Part shown: positions 10,538-29,509 of the stretch, piece by piece
Layout of the letters: each line of letters opens with the position of its first letter
Numbering within the stretch: the first letter of the stretch is position 1
Assembly (NCBI GenBank): GCA_007125985.1
Contig: SLCE01000033.1
Coordinates: 1-32,152 of the forward strand
Origin: Ectothiorhodospiraceae bacterium
GTDB taxonomy: Bacteria; Pseudomonadota; Gammaproteobacteria; Nitrococcales; Aquisalimonadaceae
DNA length: 32,152 nt
Reading direction: 5' to 3'
Notes under the pieces: model-generated
Told to the model about the DNA's origin: nothing
Seen by the model: the letters and a program-made list of their open reading frames with translations, nothing else
Databases searched by the model: none
Made by a program: the position numbers and the translations under genes

Positions 10538-11289
10538 GTCAAGGTAATGCACTCACACTGAGCGGCCTGAAGAAAAACTTCGGCCGGGCGGAAATCATTC
10601 GTGGTGTCGATCTCGACGTCCGTGATGGCGAACGTCACGTGATTATCGGGCCCAACGGGGCCGGCAAATCCACGCTGTTCAACCTGATCAGCGGGCGTAT
10701 GGAAGTGAGCGCCGGGGAGATCAAACTGTTCGGCAAGCCCATTCACAACACGCCGCCGCACAAGGTGAATCGCATGGGGCTAAGCCGCAGCTTCCAGGTC
10801 ACGAACCTGTTCCAGAACATGACGACCATGCAGAACCTGCGTTGCGCCCTGCTCTGGGGCATGGGTCACAAGTACGCCTTCTGGAAGCTGGTCAACAAGC
10901 AGCAGGAAGTCACAGAACGGGCCGAGCAATTGATGGAGCAGCTCAACCTGACCCATCGCCGCGATGTTCCGGCAGGCCTGTTGACCTATGCCGAGCAGCG
11001 TGCCCTGGAAATCGGCACCACCATCGGTTCCGGCGCCCGAGTGCTGCTGTTGGACGAACCCACAGCAGGGATGAGCCGCAGTGAATCGGACGAGGTCGTG
11101 GAATTGATCCGTCAGGTCACGAAGGACTGCACTTTGGTCATGGTGGAGCATGATCTCGGCGTGGTGTTCAACCTGGCCGATCGAATTTCCGTGCTGGTTT
11201 ACGGAGAGATCATCGCCACGGATGCACCGGAGAATATTCGCTCCAACAAGGCTGTGCAGGAAGCCTATCTCGGTACGGAGGTTCACTGA
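10534..11289 (+). CDS. livG: ABC transporter ATP-binding protein LivG
   Basis: A 251-residue ATPase. Walker A is GPNGAGKST (residues 39-47). The family insert TPPHKVNRMGLSRSFQVTNLF with the Q-loop glutamine follows. The signature region reads LTYAEQRALEIG in place of the usual LSYGDQR, and Walker B is VLLLDEPTAGM, with VEHD as the switch histidine region. It powers the LivH/LivM-type channel together with the next gene product. The stop and the next start share one base (TGATG). Confidence 0.92.
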   Translation: MSQGNALTLSGLKKNFGRAEIIRGVDLDVRDGERHVIIGPNGAGKSTLFNLISGRMEVSAGEIKLFGKPIHNTPPHKVNRMGLSRSFQVTNLFQNMTTMQNLRCALLWGMGHKYAFWKLVNKQQEVTERAEQLMEQLNLTHRRDVPAGLLTYAEQRALEIGTTIGSGARVLLLDEPTAGMSRSESDEVVELIRQVTKDCTLVMVEHDLGVVFNLADRISVLVYGEIIATDAPENIRSNKAVQEAYLGTEVH

Positions 11290-11984
11290 TGCTGTCCACG
11301 CATGATCTACACGCTTACTACGGCAAGTCGCATGTGCTGAGAGGCGTTTCCATGAACGTGCAGCCCGGCGAGATCGTCAGTCTGCTGGGTCGTAACGGCG
11401 TGGGCCGCTCCACGCTGTGCAAGGCCGTCATGGGCCTGGTGGCGCCGGTGGGTGAGGTTCGTTTCAAGGATCAGGTCATCAGCGGTCTGGATCCACACCA
11501 GATCGCCCACCGCGGGCTGGGCTATGTGCCCGAGGACCGCGCCATCTTCCCCGGGCTAACGGTGGCCGAGAACCTGGAACTCGGCAAGAAAAAACGTGGC
11601 CAAACCGGGCGTTGGGGCTACGACGAGATTTTCGAGCGTTTTCCCCGGCTCAAGGAGCGGATGGAGTTTCCGGGTGAGGTCATCTCCGGCGGCGAACAGC
11701 AGATGCTTTCCATGGCCCGATCCCTGATGGGTGATCCCGAGTGCATCATCGTGGATGAACCCACGGAAGGGCTTGCACCGAAGATCGTCGAGGAAATCGC
11801 CCACTTGCTCACGGATATCGCAGCGGCCGGAGTCAGTGTGCTGCTGGTGGAGCAGAAGCTCAGCATCGCGCTGAAGATTTCCAATCGGGTATACCTTATG
11901 GGTGAAGGTCGAATGGTGTTCGAGGGCACGCCGCAAGAACTCCACGACGATCCGGAAATCCGCAAGGAGTGGCTGGAGGTCTGA
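11289..11984 (+). CDS. livF: ABC transporter ATP-binding protein LivF with Arg in Walker A
   Basis: A 231-residue ATPase of LivF type. The signature is ISGGEQQML (about 136-144), Walker B is CIIVDEPTEGLAP, and the switch region is LLVEQKL. The Walker A motif reads GRNGVGRST (residues 34-42), so the normally invariant Lys is Arg40; the codon is CGC. A GRNGVGRST form does, to my recollection, occur in other proteobacterial LivF proteins, so this may be a lineage trait with altered ATP handling rather than damage. It is the last gene of the importer operon and is followed by a strong terminator. Confidence 0.92.
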   Translation: MLSTHDLHAYYGKSHVLRGVSMNVQPGEIVSLLGRNGVGRSTLCKAVMGLVAPVGEVRFKDQVISGLDPHQIAHRGLGYVPEDRAIFPGLTVAENLELGKKKRGQTGRWGYDEIFERFPRLKERMEFPGEVISGGEQQMLSMARSLMGDPECIIVDEPTEGLAPKIVEEIAHLLTDIAAAGVSVLLVEQKLSIALKISNRVYLMGEGRMVFEGTPQELHDDPEIRKEWLEV

Positions 11985-23329: not shown

Positions 23330-23668
23330 CTAGTCCCTGATGGACGCGAAATAGTTGGCCAACGCCTCGAGCTCGGCCTCGGTATATCCTTTGGCGATGC
23401 GATTCATCACCGTTGTGTTCGGCGTTTCATCGCGCTTGAAGGCGATCAGTTGGGCAAGCAGAACCCCCGCAGGCTGACCCGCAATGGAAGGGATGGAATC
23501 CTCCCCGTAGCGCCCGTCGGTTCCATGGCAGTTGAAGCAACTGCCTGCAAGCATGGATGCATGGTTATAACTGATCTCCTCCGCCTGGGCGGAAGATAAC
23601 ACCGTACCGGCAAGCATTAACGCACCCACTACCAGGGCGCGCGCGTTATTCTGCACGCTCTTGATCAT
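23330..23668 (-). CDS. fccA: Monoheme c-type cytochrome, FccA-like subunit
   Basis: A 112-residue cytochrome with a Sec signal (cleavage after SSAQA, about residue 29) and a single heme motif CFNCH (Cys44, Cys47, His48). Met88 in TVMNRIAKGY is the likely sixth ligand. It resembles one half of the diheme FccA of Allochromatium; monoheme partners are known in other sulfide dehydrogenases. The gene precedes fccB by nine bases and should be the electron acceptor of the flavoprotein. GGAG lies about eight bases before the ATG at 23668. It appears to head the four-gene sulfur cluster. Confidence 0.92.
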   Translation of the reverse strand: MIKSVQNNARALVVGALMLAGTVLSSAQAEEISYNHASMLAGSCFNCHGTDGRYGEDSIPSIAGQPAGVLLAQLIAFKRDETPNTTVMNRIAKGYTEAELEALANYFASIRD

Positions 23669-23753
23669 TGTTCCCGCTCCGCCATCTCGTTAAACGCCCG
23701 GCATACGGCCTTGAGGCCGATCATCACCATAACTTAACGATAGTCCACGACGC

Positions 23754-23771
23754 CCAACCAATAACGGTTGG
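23754..23771 (-). terminator. Small hairpin between EamA gene and fccA
   Basis: CCAACC and GGTTGG pair across six bases just after the EamA stop on the minus strand. It may separate that transcript from the fcc cluster; the fccA promoter should lie in the remaining ~85 bases but no clear -35/-10 pair was seen. Confidence 0.4.
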
Positions 23772-24715: not shown

Positions 24716-24970
24716 CTGTTATTTAGCGAAGGGCGCACCAGCACGGTGCGATGATCGCATGAATGCACCGCCAACGTGCGCAAAATGCGCTGTATTACCG
24801 CTTCAACCCAAGCCTATTCCCAACCGCCACATCTCAGGAGTCACGTCATGTCTCCGGGCTGAAACGGACTGGCAGCAACCGGGTCGGGCGCCACTTCGGT
24901 GCGTTCCACTGAGCAGCGGCACCAATCTTGCACATCGAGTCCTGGACCTAACTGCAACCGGGGACACGCC

Positions 24971-25378
24971 ATGTCAACACGCGTGATGCTGGTGGATGAC
25001 AGTACCGATCGGGCCCGTTGGCTGGAGGATGCTCTCGACCAGTCGGGTTATACCGTGGTCGCCACGGTGCAGGGCATGGATGATCTGTATCAACTCATGG
25101 AAGACACCTCCCCGGATGTCGTGATTGTGGAGGCCGGATCAGCGAAACGCGATACGTTGGAACATCTGGGCTCAGCAGGACACTCCTACCCCAAACCCAT
25201 CGTCATGCTTGGTGAGCACCAAAACCCGGACATGCTGCAAACGGCTGCAAAGGCGGGTATCAGCGCCTACGTGGTGCAGGGCCTGTCACCGGACGGGGTC
25301 CGCTCCATCGTCCAGGTGGCCATTGCCCAGTTCGATCAATACCACGCACTACAGCGCAAACTGGCCCGGGCAGAGTAA
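24971..25378 (+). CDS. NasT-like response regulator, receiver part only (ends at in-frame TAA)
   Basis: A 135-residue product covering the receiver and coiled linker of a NasT/AmiR-type regulator. VMLVDDSTDRARWLEDALDQ opens the receiver with the acidic pair Asp9/Asp10. The position that normally carries the phospho-accepting Asp (here VIVEAG) is Glu54. The linker runs HALQRKLARAE and then stops at TAA 25376-25378. The same frame continues directly into a complete ANTAR domain (25379-25540), so the intact gene would encode 189 residues, the usual NasT size. In the family the receiver controls an RNA-binding ANTAR domain that prevents termination in nitrate- and nitrite-assimilation leaders. 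GGGGA lies about eight bases before the ATG. Confidence 0.75.
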   Translation: MSTRVMLVDDSTDRARWLEDALDQSGYTVVATVQGMDDLYQLMEDTSPDVVIVEAGSAKRDTLEHLGSAGHSYPKPIVMLGEHQNPDMLQTAAKAGISAYVVQGLSPDGVRSIVQVAIAQFDQYHALQRKLARAE

Positions 25379-25540
25379 CGTCTGCAGGAACAAAAGCTGG
25401 TAGAGCGCGCCAAGTGCCTGCTCATGGAGCGCCATGGGCTGCCGGAACAGCAGGCCCATGACATGCTGCGGAAAACCGCCATGGACCACAGTAAACGGTT
25501 AGTGGACGTCGCACGCCGCCTGCTGCAGAAATTCAGCTGA
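25379..25540 (+). pseudogene. ANTAR RNA-binding domain cut off from its receiver by a single stop codon
   Basis: Read in the frame of the receiver, the 53 codons after the TAA encode RLQEQKLVERAKCLLMERHG and onward to ARRLLQKFS, ending at TGA 25538-25540. ERAKCLLMERHGL and AHDMLRKTAMDHSKRLVDVA carry the hallmark pattern of ANTAR domains, including the Ala-Lys pair, MxR-like MER and the regularly spaced hydrophobics. No frameshift is needed. The domain is undamaged apart from the stop, so the mutation is recent, is read through, or is a sequence error. An internal ATG at 25423 would remove the first helix residues. A CAA-to-TAA change would explain the stop. Confidence 0.8.
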
Positions 25541-25637
25541 TTGCCCAGAGCGGCTCAGGCGCCGCACCAATTCCGTGCACCCCGCACGCTGACCAGTTCA
25601 CCGAAAACGCAGACAAAACCCTAAGCCACTGGTTTTT

Positions 25638-25652
25638 ATTGTTTTTAACAAT
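25638..25652. promoter_or_regulatory. Palindrome next to the sigma-54 promoter
   Basis: ATTGTT-TTT-AACAAT is a perfect 6-bp inverted repeat ending two bases before the -24 element. It could be an operator or simply AT-rich promoter DNA; its position would block or touch RNA polymerase holoenzyme. Confidence 0.35.
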
Positions 25653-25653
25653 C

Positions 25654-25669
25654 TGGCACAAAAGGTGCT
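25654..25669 (+). promoter_or_regulatory. Sigma-54 (RpoN) promoter of the cyn operon
   Basis: TGGCAC at 25654-25659 and TGCT at 25666-25669 place the invariant GG and GC exactly 12 bases apart, as the -24/-12 consensus TGGCAC-N5-TTGCW requires (one mismatch, G for the first T of TTGC). The predicted start of transcription is near 25680, giving a leader of about 154 nt. It implies nitrogen control through an NtrC-type activator. Confidence 0.75.
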
Positions 25670-25686
25670 TTAGTCCACTCAGGCTA

Positions 25687-25734
25687 GCTGCCGTGTATCG
25701 CAGATGCGATGCCCAAAGACGGGAGTACGGCAGC
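25687..25734 (+). ncRNA. Structured leader RNA, possible ANTAR target
   Basis: GCTGCCGT (25687-25694) pairs with ACGGCAGC (25727-25734) and encloses two small hairpins. The first is ATCGC-AGAT-GCGAT (25697-25710). The second is CCC-AAAGAC-GGG (25712-25723), whose six-base loop has A at position 1 and G at position 4, as ANTAR targets do. The first loop does not fit that rule, so the assignment is tentative. It sits in the untranslated leader just before a terminator. Confidence 0.45.
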
Positions 25735-25756
25735 CAGGCATCACTGAAACAGGCAA

Positions 25757-25795
25757 GGGCGTCTCGTCGACCACGGTCGACCAGACGCCCTTTTT
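25757..25795 (+). terminator. Attenuator-type intrinsic terminator in the cynA leader
   Basis: GGGCGTCT and AGACGCCC form the outer stem, with GTCGAC/GTCGAC pairing inside, followed by TTTTTCGTTT. It is a very strong intrinsic terminator located between the sigma-54 promoter and the cynA start (25834), so it must be overcome for expression. This is the arrangement of NasR/NasT-controlled leaders. Confidence 0.85.
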
Positions 25796-25833
25796 CGTTT
25801 CCAGCAGGGCATGAAACGCCAGAGGGCAAAACC

Positions 25834-27234
25834 ATGAGCAACAAATCATTGAGTGATCCGTTCAAGGCCGAATCCGACCTGAGTCATGGGGCAGGCTGCG
25901 GCTGCAGCAGCTGCCATCCTGCAGCTGCCGGGGCTCCTGCCCAGCCGGCCAGCGCCACGACCAGTCAATCCATGGACCAGGAAGCCATGATTGATCGCGC
26001 CATTGAGAGCGCGGTGGTCCGCGCGGTGTTCGGCCATCACGATGCCTCCCGGCGGAAGTTCATCAAGATGATGGGCACGGGCACCTTCGCCGCCGCCCTG
26101 GCAAGTGTCTTTCCGCTGGATGCGGCCAAGGCCCTGCTCAAGGACAACCTCGGCAAGCCCGAGAAAACCGACCTAAAAATCGGCTTCGTGCCGATCACCT
26201 GCGCCACACCGATCATCATGGCCCACCCCATGGGTTTCTACGAGCGGCATGGCCTGAATGTTGAGGTGCTGCGTACGGCAGGCTGGGCGGTGGCGCGCGA
26301 TATGTCGATCAACCGTGAATACGATGCATCGCACATGCTCACCCCCATGCCGCTGGCCATGACCCTGGGCACCGGTTCCAGTTCCATGCCCTTCATCATG
26401 CCTGCGGTGGAAAACATCAACGGTCAGGCCATCACCCTGCACAACAAGCACAAGGACAAACGCGACCCGAAAGACTGGAAGGGCTTCCGCTTTGCCGTTC
26501 CGTTCGAATTCTCCATGCACAACTTCCTGTTGCGCTACTACGTGGCTGAGCACGGCCTGGACCCGGATCGCGATATTCAGATCCGTGTGCTGCCGCCACC
26601 CGAGATGGTTGCCAATCTACGCGCAGGCAACGTTGACGGCTACCTGGCCCCGGATCCGTTCAACCAGCGTGCGGTCTGGGACGGTGTCGGCTTCATTCAT
26701 CTGCTGACCAAGGAACTGTGGGACGGACACCCCTGCTGTGCCTTCGGTACCAGCCGGGCTTTCGCCGAAGAGCACCCCAATACCTTCGGTGCCCTGTTCA
26801 AGGCCATCGTCGAGGCCACGCATTATTCCTCCGAGCACGGCAACCGCATGGAGATTGCCGAAGCCATTTCCACCCGGAATTACTTGAACCAGCCGGTGGA
26901 GGTCGTGCAGCAGGTACTCACCGGACGCTACGCCGATGGCTTGGGCAATGTGAAGGATGAGCCGGACCGCATCGACTTCGACCCCTTCCCCTGGCACTCA
27001 ATGGGTGTCTGGATCCTCACCCAGATGCGCCGATGGGGCTATATCGACGACAGCGTCGATTACAAGAGCGTGGCCGAGGAGGTTTATCTGGCCACCGAGT
27101 GCGGTCGCCTGATGGAAGAGTTGGGCTACGAGGCTCCAGAGGTTACCTACAAGAGTCACATGATCATGGGCAAGGAATTCGATCCGCACGAGCCGGAGGC
27201 CTATGTGGACAGCTTCGAGATCCGGAGGTCCTAA
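25834..27234 (+). CDS. cynA: Cyanate/nitrate-type ABC transporter substrate-binding protein, Tat-exported
   Basis: A 466-residue protein of the NrtA/CmpA/CynA family. The twin-arginine motif SRRKFIK (72-78) is followed by a hydrophobic segment. The mature region shows KIGFVPITCATPIIMAHPMGFYERHGL and the FAVPFEFSMHNFLLRYY and AGNVDGYLAPDPFNQRAV segments typical of this fold. About 70 residues precede the Tat motif and include a CGCSSCHP cluster (22-29). With cynS last in the operon, cyanate is the likeliest ligand; nitrate is possible. GAGGG lies seven bases before the ATG at 25834, and an in-frame stretch upstream is ruled out because it would cross the leader terminator. Confidence 0.88.
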   Translation: MSNKSLSDPFKAESDLSHGAGCGCSSCHPAAAGAPAQPASATTSQSMDQEAMIDRAIESAVVRAVFGHHDASRRKFIKMMGTGTFAAALASVFPLDAAKALLKDNLGKPEKTDLKIGFVPITCATPIIMAHPMGFYERHGLNVEVLRTAGWAVARDMSINREYDASHMLTPMPLAMTLGTGSSSMPFIMPAVENINGQAITLHNKHKDKRDPKDWKGFRFAVPFEFSMHNFLLRYYVAEHGLDPDRDIQIRVLPPPEMVANLRAGNVDGYLAPDPFNQRAVWDGVGFIHLLTKELWDGHPCCAFGTSRAFAEEHPNTFGALFKAIVEATHYSSEHGNRMEIAEAISTRNYLNQPVEVVQQVLTGRYADGLGNVKDEPDRIDFDPFPWHSMGVWILTQMRRWGYIDDSVDYKSVAEEVYLATECGRLMEELGYEAPEVTYKSHMIMGKEFDPHEPEAYVDSFEIRRS

Positions 27235-27237
27235 GCC

Positions 27238-28083
27238 ATGTGGAACTCAATCAACCTGAGAGCGGCCCTCCTCAGCCTGACAATTCTGATCGTGGCCCTT
27301 GCCGCCTGGGAGTGGTCAGTGAGCGGCGGTCTGGTTCCTTCGGAACAGGAGGAATTGAGCGAGTACGAGCGGCTGATGGGCGGCGCCAGCAGCACCGCCG
27401 GCTCCGGCGTGCCCGCGCCCTCGGCGGTGATTAACCGTGCCATCGAGGAGTTGTCCGACCCCTTCTATGACCGGGGCAGCAACGACAAGGGCATCGGCAT
27501 CCAGCTCGCGCACTCCATCGGCCGGGTGGCAATCGGCTACGGTCTGGCCGTTCTGGTAGCCGTACCGCTGGGCTTCGTGATCGGCATGTCACCGCTGATG
27601 CAGAAGGCGCTCAACCCCTATATCCAGATCCTGCGGCCCATTTCGCCGTTGGCCTGGATGCCTCTGGCACTGTTCATCATCCGTGATGCCGGACAGTCGG
27701 CGGTGTTCGTGATCTTCATCTGTTCCGTCTGGCCGGTTCTGGTCAATACCAGTTTCGGGGTGGCGGGAGTGAAGAAAGACCTGCTGAACGTGGCACGCAC
27801 CTTGGAACTGTCACGTCTGCGCACGGCGTTCACGGTCATTCTGCCAGCCGCGGCACCGACCATCCTCACCGGCATGCGCATCGCCATCGGCATTTCCTGG
27901 CTGGTGATCGTGGCCGCGGAAATGCTCGTGGGCGGCACCGGTATCGGCTACTTCGTCTGGAACGAATGGAACAACCTGGATCTGACCAGCGTGATTTTCT
28001 CGATCCTGATGATCGGGCTGGTGGGCATGGTGCTCGACACCATCCTGGCCACGGCAACCCGCATGGTCCAGTACGCCGACTAA
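27238..28083 (+). CDS. cynB: Cyanate/nitrate-type ABC transporter permease
   Basis: A 281-residue inner-membrane permease of the NrtB/SsuC type, with one N-terminal helix, a periplasmic stretch of about 60 residues and five further helices. The EAA-like ATPase contact loop is LLNVARTLELSRLRTAFTVILPAAAPTILTG, and LRPISPLAWMPLALFI is the conserved core segment. It starts three bases after the cynA stop with GGAGG inside the end of cynA. It should form the channel of the cyanate importer. Confidence 0.9.
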   Translation: MWNSINLRAALLSLTILIVALAAWEWSVSGGLVPSEQEELSEYERLMGGASSTAGSGVPAPSAVINRAIEELSDPFYDRGSNDKGIGIQLAHSIGRVAIGYGLAVLVAVPLGFVIGMSPLMQKALNPYIQILRPISPLAWMPLALFIIRDAGQSAVFVIFICSVWPVLVNTSFGVAGVKKDLLNVARTLELSRLRTAFTVILPAAAPTILTGMRIAIGISWLVIVAAEMLVGGTGIGYFVWNEWNNLDLTSVIFSILMIGLVGMVLDTILATATRMVQYAD

Positions 28084-28132: not shown

Positions 28133-29032
28133 ATGAACAAGGCATTCCTTGAAATCGAGAATCTGAAGAAGGTGTTCCCCGGGCCGCGCGGCGGCGAACC
28201 GCTGACCGTATTCGAGAACGTCACCGTGGGCATTCAGCGGGGCGAGTTCGTATGCGTGATCGGCCACTCCGGCTGCGGCAAATCCACCATCCTCAATGTC
28301 ATCGCCGGCCTCGACGATGCCACCGAAGGCTACGTGTTCATGGACGGCAAGGAGGTCAAGGGCACCAGTCTGGATCGCGGCGTGATCTTCCAGAATCACA
28401 GCCTGCTGCCCTGGAAGTCCGCGCTGTCCAACGTGATGTTCGCGGTCAAATCACGCTGGCCGGGCTGGTCCCGGGAACAAGTCCGTGCCCATGCCATGAA
28501 GTACATCGAGATGGTCGGGCTCAAGGGCACGGAGGACCGCAAGCCCAGCCAGCTCTCCGGCGGCATGCGCCAGCGGGTGGGTATCGCCCGGGCCTTTGCC
28601 ATCGAACCGAAGATGCTGCTCATGGACGAGCCCTTCGGCGCCTTGGATGCGCTTACCCGCGGCACCATCCAGGACGAGTTGCTGAACATCTGGAGCCAGG
28701 CCGGCCAGACCGTGTTCATGATCACTCATGACGTGGACGAGGCCATTCTACTGTCCGACCGCATCCTGCTCATGACCAATGGGCCCAATGCCAGCGTCGC
28801 TGAGGCGGTGGAAGTGGATATTCCCCGTCCCCGCAATCGGGAAACCCTGTTCAAGCACGAGCGCTTCTACCAGATCCGTAACCACTTGGTGGACTTCCTT
28901 GTACGCCGCTCCAAGGAGTTGTCGGGCAACGGTGGCGGAGCAACCCGCACCGTACGCCTGGCAGCGGTGAATGAGGATCAGGACGACAGCTCGGACGAAC
29001 ACCCCCGCCGAGCGGCAGCCGGCGGTCATTGA
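28133..29032 (+). CDS. cynD: Cyanate/nitrate-type ABC transporter ATP-binding protein
   Basis: A 299-residue ATPase. Walker A is GHSGCGKST (44-52), the Q-loop is VIFQNHSLLPW, the signature is LSGGMRQR (141-148), and Walker B is MLLMDEPFGALDALTR. It matches the NrtD/SsuB group. A short C-terminal tail, EDQDDSSDEH, is acidic and not part of the fold. It lacks the NrtA-like regulatory domain found on NrtC, consistent with a CynD-type subunit. AGGAG precedes the ATG, and the gap from the permease gene is 49 bases. Confidence 0.92.
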   Translation: MNKAFLEIENLKKVFPGPRGGEPLTVFENVTVGIQRGEFVCVIGHSGCGKSTILNVIAGLDDATEGYVFMDGKEVKGTSLDRGVIFQNHSLLPWKSALSNVMFAVKSRWPGWSREQVRAHAMKYIEMVGLKGTEDRKPSQLSGGMRQRVGIARAFAIEPKMLLMDEPFGALDALTRGTIQDELLNIWSQAGQTVFMITHDVDEAILLSDRILLMTNGPNASVAEAVEVDIPRPRNRETLFKHERFYQIRNHLVDFLVRRSKELSGNGGGATRTVRLAAVNEDQDDSSDEHPRRAAAGGH

Positions 29033-29065: not shown

Positions 29066-29509
29066 ATGGACAAGAACGCAATGCGCGAAGCGATCGTCGC
29101 CGCCAAGGCGGAAAAAGGCATGAGCTGGGAAGAGCTCGGCGCCGCCGTCGGTATGAATCCCGTGTTCGTCTGCTCGGCCGCCCTGGGCGAGAACAGCATG
29201 CTGCAGCCCGAGGCGGATAAGCTCTGCGAGGCGCTGGGGCTGCCTTCTGACGTCTCCAAGGGCCTGCAGGCCTACCCCATCAAGGCGCAGCGTGCGGCAA
29301 CCATGGCCGCAGATCCGTTGGTCTACCGGCTCAACGAGGTGATCCTGGTGTACGGGGAAACCCTGAAGGAAGTGATCCAGGAAAAGATGGGCGATGGCAT
29401 TGTCAGCGCCATCGACTTCACCATGGATGTGGACAAGGTTCCCGACCCTAAGGGTGATCGGGTGAAGATCACGCTGAACGGCAAATTCCTGCCCTACAAG
29501 CGCTGGTAA
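29066..29509 (+). CDS. cynS: Cyanase (cyanate hydratase)
   Basis: A 147-residue cyanase, close to the usual 156. It converts cyanate and bicarbonate to ammonia and two CO2 (via carbamate) in the cytoplasm as a decamer. The catalytic triad is visible: Arg88 and Glu91 in YRLNEVILVYG and Ser114 in GDGIVSAIDF, matching Arg96, Glu99 and Ser122 of the E. coli enzyme. The N-terminal helical domain and C-terminal KITLNGKFLPYKRW are also conserved. It begins 33 bases after the transporter ATPase gene, so uptake and breakdown are coexpressed for nitrogen supply or cyanate detoxification. Confidence 0.96.
   Translation: MDKNAMREAIVAAKAEKGMSWEELGAAVGMNPVFVCSAALGENSMLQPEADKLCEALGLPSDVSKGLQAYPIKAQRAATMAADPLVYRLNEVILVYGETLKEVIQEKMGDGIVSAIDFTMDVDKVPDPKGDRVKITLNGKFLPYKRW

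Follow-up and report, generated by a model that had tools for sequence, protein, structure and literature searches.

A NasT-like antiterminator gene interrupted by a private in-frame stop codon upstream of an nrtABC-cynS operon in an Ectothiorhodospiraceae bacterium

A NasT-like antiterminator gene in an Ectothiorhodospiraceae bacterium (assembly GCA_007125985.1) is interrupted by one in-frame TAA codon, located in the linker between its receiver domain and its RNA-binding ANTAR domain. The gene lies at 24971-25540 of contig SLCE01000033.1, positions 1 to 32,152 of which were analysed and are here called the window; it and the leader elements and operon genes given below are on the forward strand. 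The stop occurs in no relative that was compared, while the leader and the nrtABC-cynS operon that follow the gene are intact. We consider it probable that this nitrate/cyanate transporter-cyanase operon has lost its antitermination through a recent nonsense mutation, which would make the gene a young loss-of-function allele; an error in the sequence or assembly is the main rival explanation.

The interrupted frame and its relatives

Translation of 24971-25540 gives a single frame of 189 codons: 135 residues, starting with the NasT-type receiver part at the ATG at 24971, then TAA at 25376-25378, a further 53 residues, and TGA at 25538-25540. The receiver part (24971-25378, closed by the premature TAA) matches the Response_reg profile PF00072 with an E-value of 5.5e-10, and the part beyond the stop (25379-25540, ending with the TGA) matches ANTAR (PF03861) with an E-value of 1.2e-19 and 70.3 bits, above the curated cut-off of 27.3. 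The ANTAR domains of intact orthologues score between 56 and 75 bits, that of the nearest relative 69.2, so the score in the window is not reduced. An earlier note on this DNA had described just such a gene, with a receiver closed by the TAA, the same frame running on into an intact ANTAR domain up to 25540, both halves well preserved and no frameshift. All of this holds on translation and profile comparison: the TAA is in frame, there is no indel, and the frame read through the stop aligns without gaps to the orthologue of the same-genus genome G002 over 189 codons at 79-80% identity, which rules out chance. Receiver and ANTAR domains lie in one polypeptide in the intact orthologues; in the window the TAA stands between them.

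The note had also called for an alignment with NasT orthologues, and this places the stop in the window genome only. Across the class, a sample of 369 genomes yielded 88 listed matches, including the window's own, and the other 87 (from 84 genomes) have no internal stop; all matches from the family and the order are intact as well. The two same-genus orthologues are intact, that of G002 (record JAFIFU010000064, an Ectothiorhodospiraceae metagenome-assembled genome) being 80% and that of G001 69% identical. The linker column that holds the stop is variable, with Glu, Thr, Ala, Arg, Gln or Ser in the relatives, and many of the codons that could stand at this site are a single base change away from a stop. 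The note had named, as a finding that would speak against its description, orthologues with the ANTAR part as a separate gene with its own start; no relative in the sample has receiver and ANTAR as separate genes. Searches for further copies gave only the G002 record when genome contigs were scanned for the same population, and no match in the plasmid collection. By sequence comparison, then, the gene has the features of a nonsense pseudogene, a private disabling change in a gene whose orthologues are otherwise intact; a read-through gene would keep its stop in relatives together with a constrained downstream frame, and here the stop is present in no other sequence.

The codons beyond the stop show that the lesion, if real, is young. 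Compared with G002, they have 0.093 nonsynonymous differences per site (pN) against 0.69 synonymous ones (pS), for a ratio of substitution rates (dN/dS) of about 0.05, no worse than the 0.09 of the receiver part, and 25 of the 36 differences in this half are at third codon positions. Of the amino-acid changes, three fall on the window lineage and two on that of G002, with three that could be on either. Synonymous divergence (dS) between the two is near saturation, at about 1.3-1.9, and by a rough estimate a 113-site stretch free of constraint would have gathered some 75-85 nonsynonymous changes along the window branch after the two lineages parted. The observed number is about 6 at most, which limits the stop to roughly the final tenth of that branch at the longest. 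The post-stop half thus appears to have been fully constrained until recently, and this constraint means that the stop is young, is an error, or is followed by a tail that is still translated.

Explanations for the stop

If the stop is a recent nonsense mutation, a one-protein NasT-type antiterminator, with a pseudo-receiver, a coiled linker and an ANTAR domain, would very recently have gained a private nonsense codon in its linker. The product would be limited to a receiver fragment, both hairpins of the nrtABC-cynS leader would be left unbound, and the terminator would form by default, keeping the transporter-cyanase operon at basal expression. We infer that the cell truly carries this codon, that translation terminates efficiently at it, and that operon expression has dropped. 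Several points weigh against this. A consensus error would look the same in the sequence, and reads alone separate it from a true allele; the absence of decay in leader and operon is predicted by an error too, though a recent loss need not cause decay; and the species is represented by one genome. The leader motif (below) also has one match in the whole genome, upstream of nrtA, but a reversed control pattern has one match as well, so the weight of the pattern lies in its conserved position in relatives and not in its rarity.

A sequence or assembly artefact -- a wrong consensus base or a minority-strain allele, with the real gene intact and encoding an ordinary NasT-type antiterminator -- is a less likely but serious possibility. 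The genome is a draft assembly of 248 contigs, the stop is private to it, there is no decay around the stop, and a single base change turns many sense codons into a stop. Such errors are not abundant in the part of the assembly that was sampled, however: when about 222 kb (a sample of stretches) was scanned for coding frames broken by one stop, the nasT-like gene was the clearest single-stop candidate, most others having a start codon a few codons past the stop, a pattern also given by neighbouring genes. Two further candidates were rejected: at L057:15792 the downstream ParA-like protein has, by eye, its own start, and in the cytochrome c gene at 23333-23761, considered as a second disruption nearby, the stop is upstream of the real start.

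Programmed or tolerated UAA read-through, yielding some full-length antiterminator with termination setting the dose, is improbable. It would fit the purifying selection on the post-stop half, and a comparative study has inferred widespread bacterial in-frame stops with dN/dS below 1, TAA included (PMC7918605); the same study finds that such stops persist only briefly, and the selection signal here is mostly older than the stop. No relative retains a stop at the site, and no added element is seen past it: the CGT CTG CAG that directly follows is also present in the nearest relative, which marks it as inherited coding sequence and not as a read-through signal. TAA is, moreover, a working terminator in this genome, since among 18 other genes read in 13-32 kb none has an in-frame stop and four, nrtA among them, end in TAA; reassignment of the codon was rejected on the same grounds. 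The more specific proposal that UAA read-through between pseudo-receiver and RNA-binding ANTAR serves as translational dose control of antitermination in the nitrate/cyanate operon is more improbable still. Least credible of all is that the halves are made separately, a receiver protein and a re-initiated ANTAR peptide that would act as a constitutive or trans-controlled antiterminator. Relatives that carry the two as separate genes are lacking from the sample, and between the stop and 25424, which sits within ANTAR helix 1, there is no in-frame ATG, GTG or TTG, only CTG codons; a separately started ANTAR protein is thus unlikely on the sequence, and a separate start was rejected for want of a suitable codon. 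Of the four readings offered in the earlier note, two are still standing, a recent loss of antitermination and a sequence error, the stop being private and young; separately made halves are disfavoured, and read-through has gained no positive support.

The private nonsense codon is thus most likely an ordinary event, either loss of function or sequence error, in an antiterminator that is otherwise unremarkable. A true nonsense allele would amount to a natural knock-out in which a dedicated antiterminator is lost while its leader and operon stay intact, useful for asking whether the operon falls silent or is rewired without it; otherwise the case shows why read support should come first when a stop is private to a draft assembly. 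The more useful by-product is the conserved nasT-leader-nrtABC-cynS block, with its sigma54-like and ANTAR control and with NasS not found.

The leader and the nrtABC-cynS operon

As the earlier note had proposed, the regulator lies directly upstream of a leader with an attenuator, where a terminator and two ANTAR-type hairpins have been identified. A sigma54-like promoter, TGGCAC-N6-TGCT (GG-N10-GC), is read at 25654-25669, and its GG-N10-GC is retained in six of seven leaders in an alignment read by eye. An outer leader stem, GCTGCCGT/ACGGCAGC (25687-25734), is placed around two hairpins. The ANTAR-type hairpins are P1, CCC[AAAGAC]GGG (25712-25723), and P2, GGC[AAGGGC]GTC (25752-25763), each having a hexaloop with A1 and G4. 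An intrinsic terminator extends over 25757-25795 (stem 25757-25764/25783-25790 plus an inner stem, then TTTTT), and folding of 25752-25802 gives -28.9 kcal/mol with a z-score of -6.0. P2 shares bases with the terminator's 5' arm, which it overlaps, and only one of the two structures can form at a time. Published ANTAR targets have two A1/G4 hexaloops, the second overlapping the terminator base (PMC3369931); two such hairpins, the second excluding an intrinsic terminator, are present in the window and in five of six orthologous leaders, the exception being G001, where the second loop begins with G in place of A. The likeness to the dual-hairpin targets of EutV, NasR and AmiR (PMC3369931) thus extends to the overlap with the terminator 5' base; in the window, unlike those systems, about 28 nt separate the hairpins, which sit within a larger leader that also has an outer stem, and the regulator is truncated. 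An Rfam scan of the window gave no hits. The combination of sigma54-like promoter and ANTAR dual-hairpin attenuator before nrtABC-cynS is conserved between 25541-25836 and the leaders of L037-L042. By eye, palindromes resembling GCACC-N5-GGTGC, similar to NtrC sites, are present at 24735-24800, ahead of nasT, and at 25560-25600, ahead of the sigma54-like promoter.

The operon comprises an nrtA/cynA-type substrate-binding protein (NMT1_2) with a signal resembling those of the twin-arginine translocation pathway (25837-27234), an nrtB-type permease (27238-28083; TIGR01183 above cut-off), an nrtC/D-type ATPase (28133-29032; TIGR01184 above cut-off), and cynS, encoding cyanase (cyanate lyase; 29066-29509). 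The order nasT-leader-nrtABC-cynS is shared by G002, G001, G011, G003 and G022, and by G013 up to its contig end. The cynABDS genes of Pseudomonas pseudoalcaligenes (PMC6627978) likewise have ATP-binding cassette (ABC) transporter genes followed by cynS, with a sigma54-type promoter upstream; their regulator is the sigma54-dependent activator CynF, whereas that of the window is an ANTAR protein.

The regulator family, its partner and a paralogue

The orthologues are by architecture of NasT/Rv1626 type. Among solved structures, the best match along the full length is the Rv1626-type putative antiterminator 1s8n (E-value 1.5e-21), likewise a receiver plus ANTAR; unlike the window gene it is intact, and details of the receiver differ. 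In the alignment, the cyanase-linked clade has Glu at residue 54, the usual phospho-acceptor position, where G016, G034 and G020 retain Asp; this suggests a phosphorylation-independent pseudo-receiver. The name NasT-like, used in the earlier note, stands for the receiver-ANTAR architecture but not for a NasS-NasT system. Like NasS-NasT of Paracoccus denitrificans (PMC3795266), the window has a receiver-ANTAR protein beside nitrate-type uptake genes with an attenuator leader, and it differs in having Glu at the phospho-acceptor position, a terminal cyanase gene, an ANTAR domain severed by the stop, and no NasS found: a genome search with PF13379 gave strong scores only for transporter-type binding proteins, though the draft may miss genes. 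Since no NasS was found and a cyanase gene closes the operon, the signal of the regulator may be cyanate or nitrite/nitrate.

The sole other ANTAR gene in the genome encodes an intact NasT paralogue, C24, which is 42% identical and located in an ABC transporter/nitrile hydratase/formamidase cluster (L036:4190-4660 and 11015-11593). Back-up of the truncated regulator by this paralogue looks unlikely because its own leader seems to bear different loops, possibly reflecting a different ANTAR specificity. As read from the sequence, that locus has a sigma54-like site and a terminator leader, the loops of which look like G1/G4 (GATGAT, GAAGGC).
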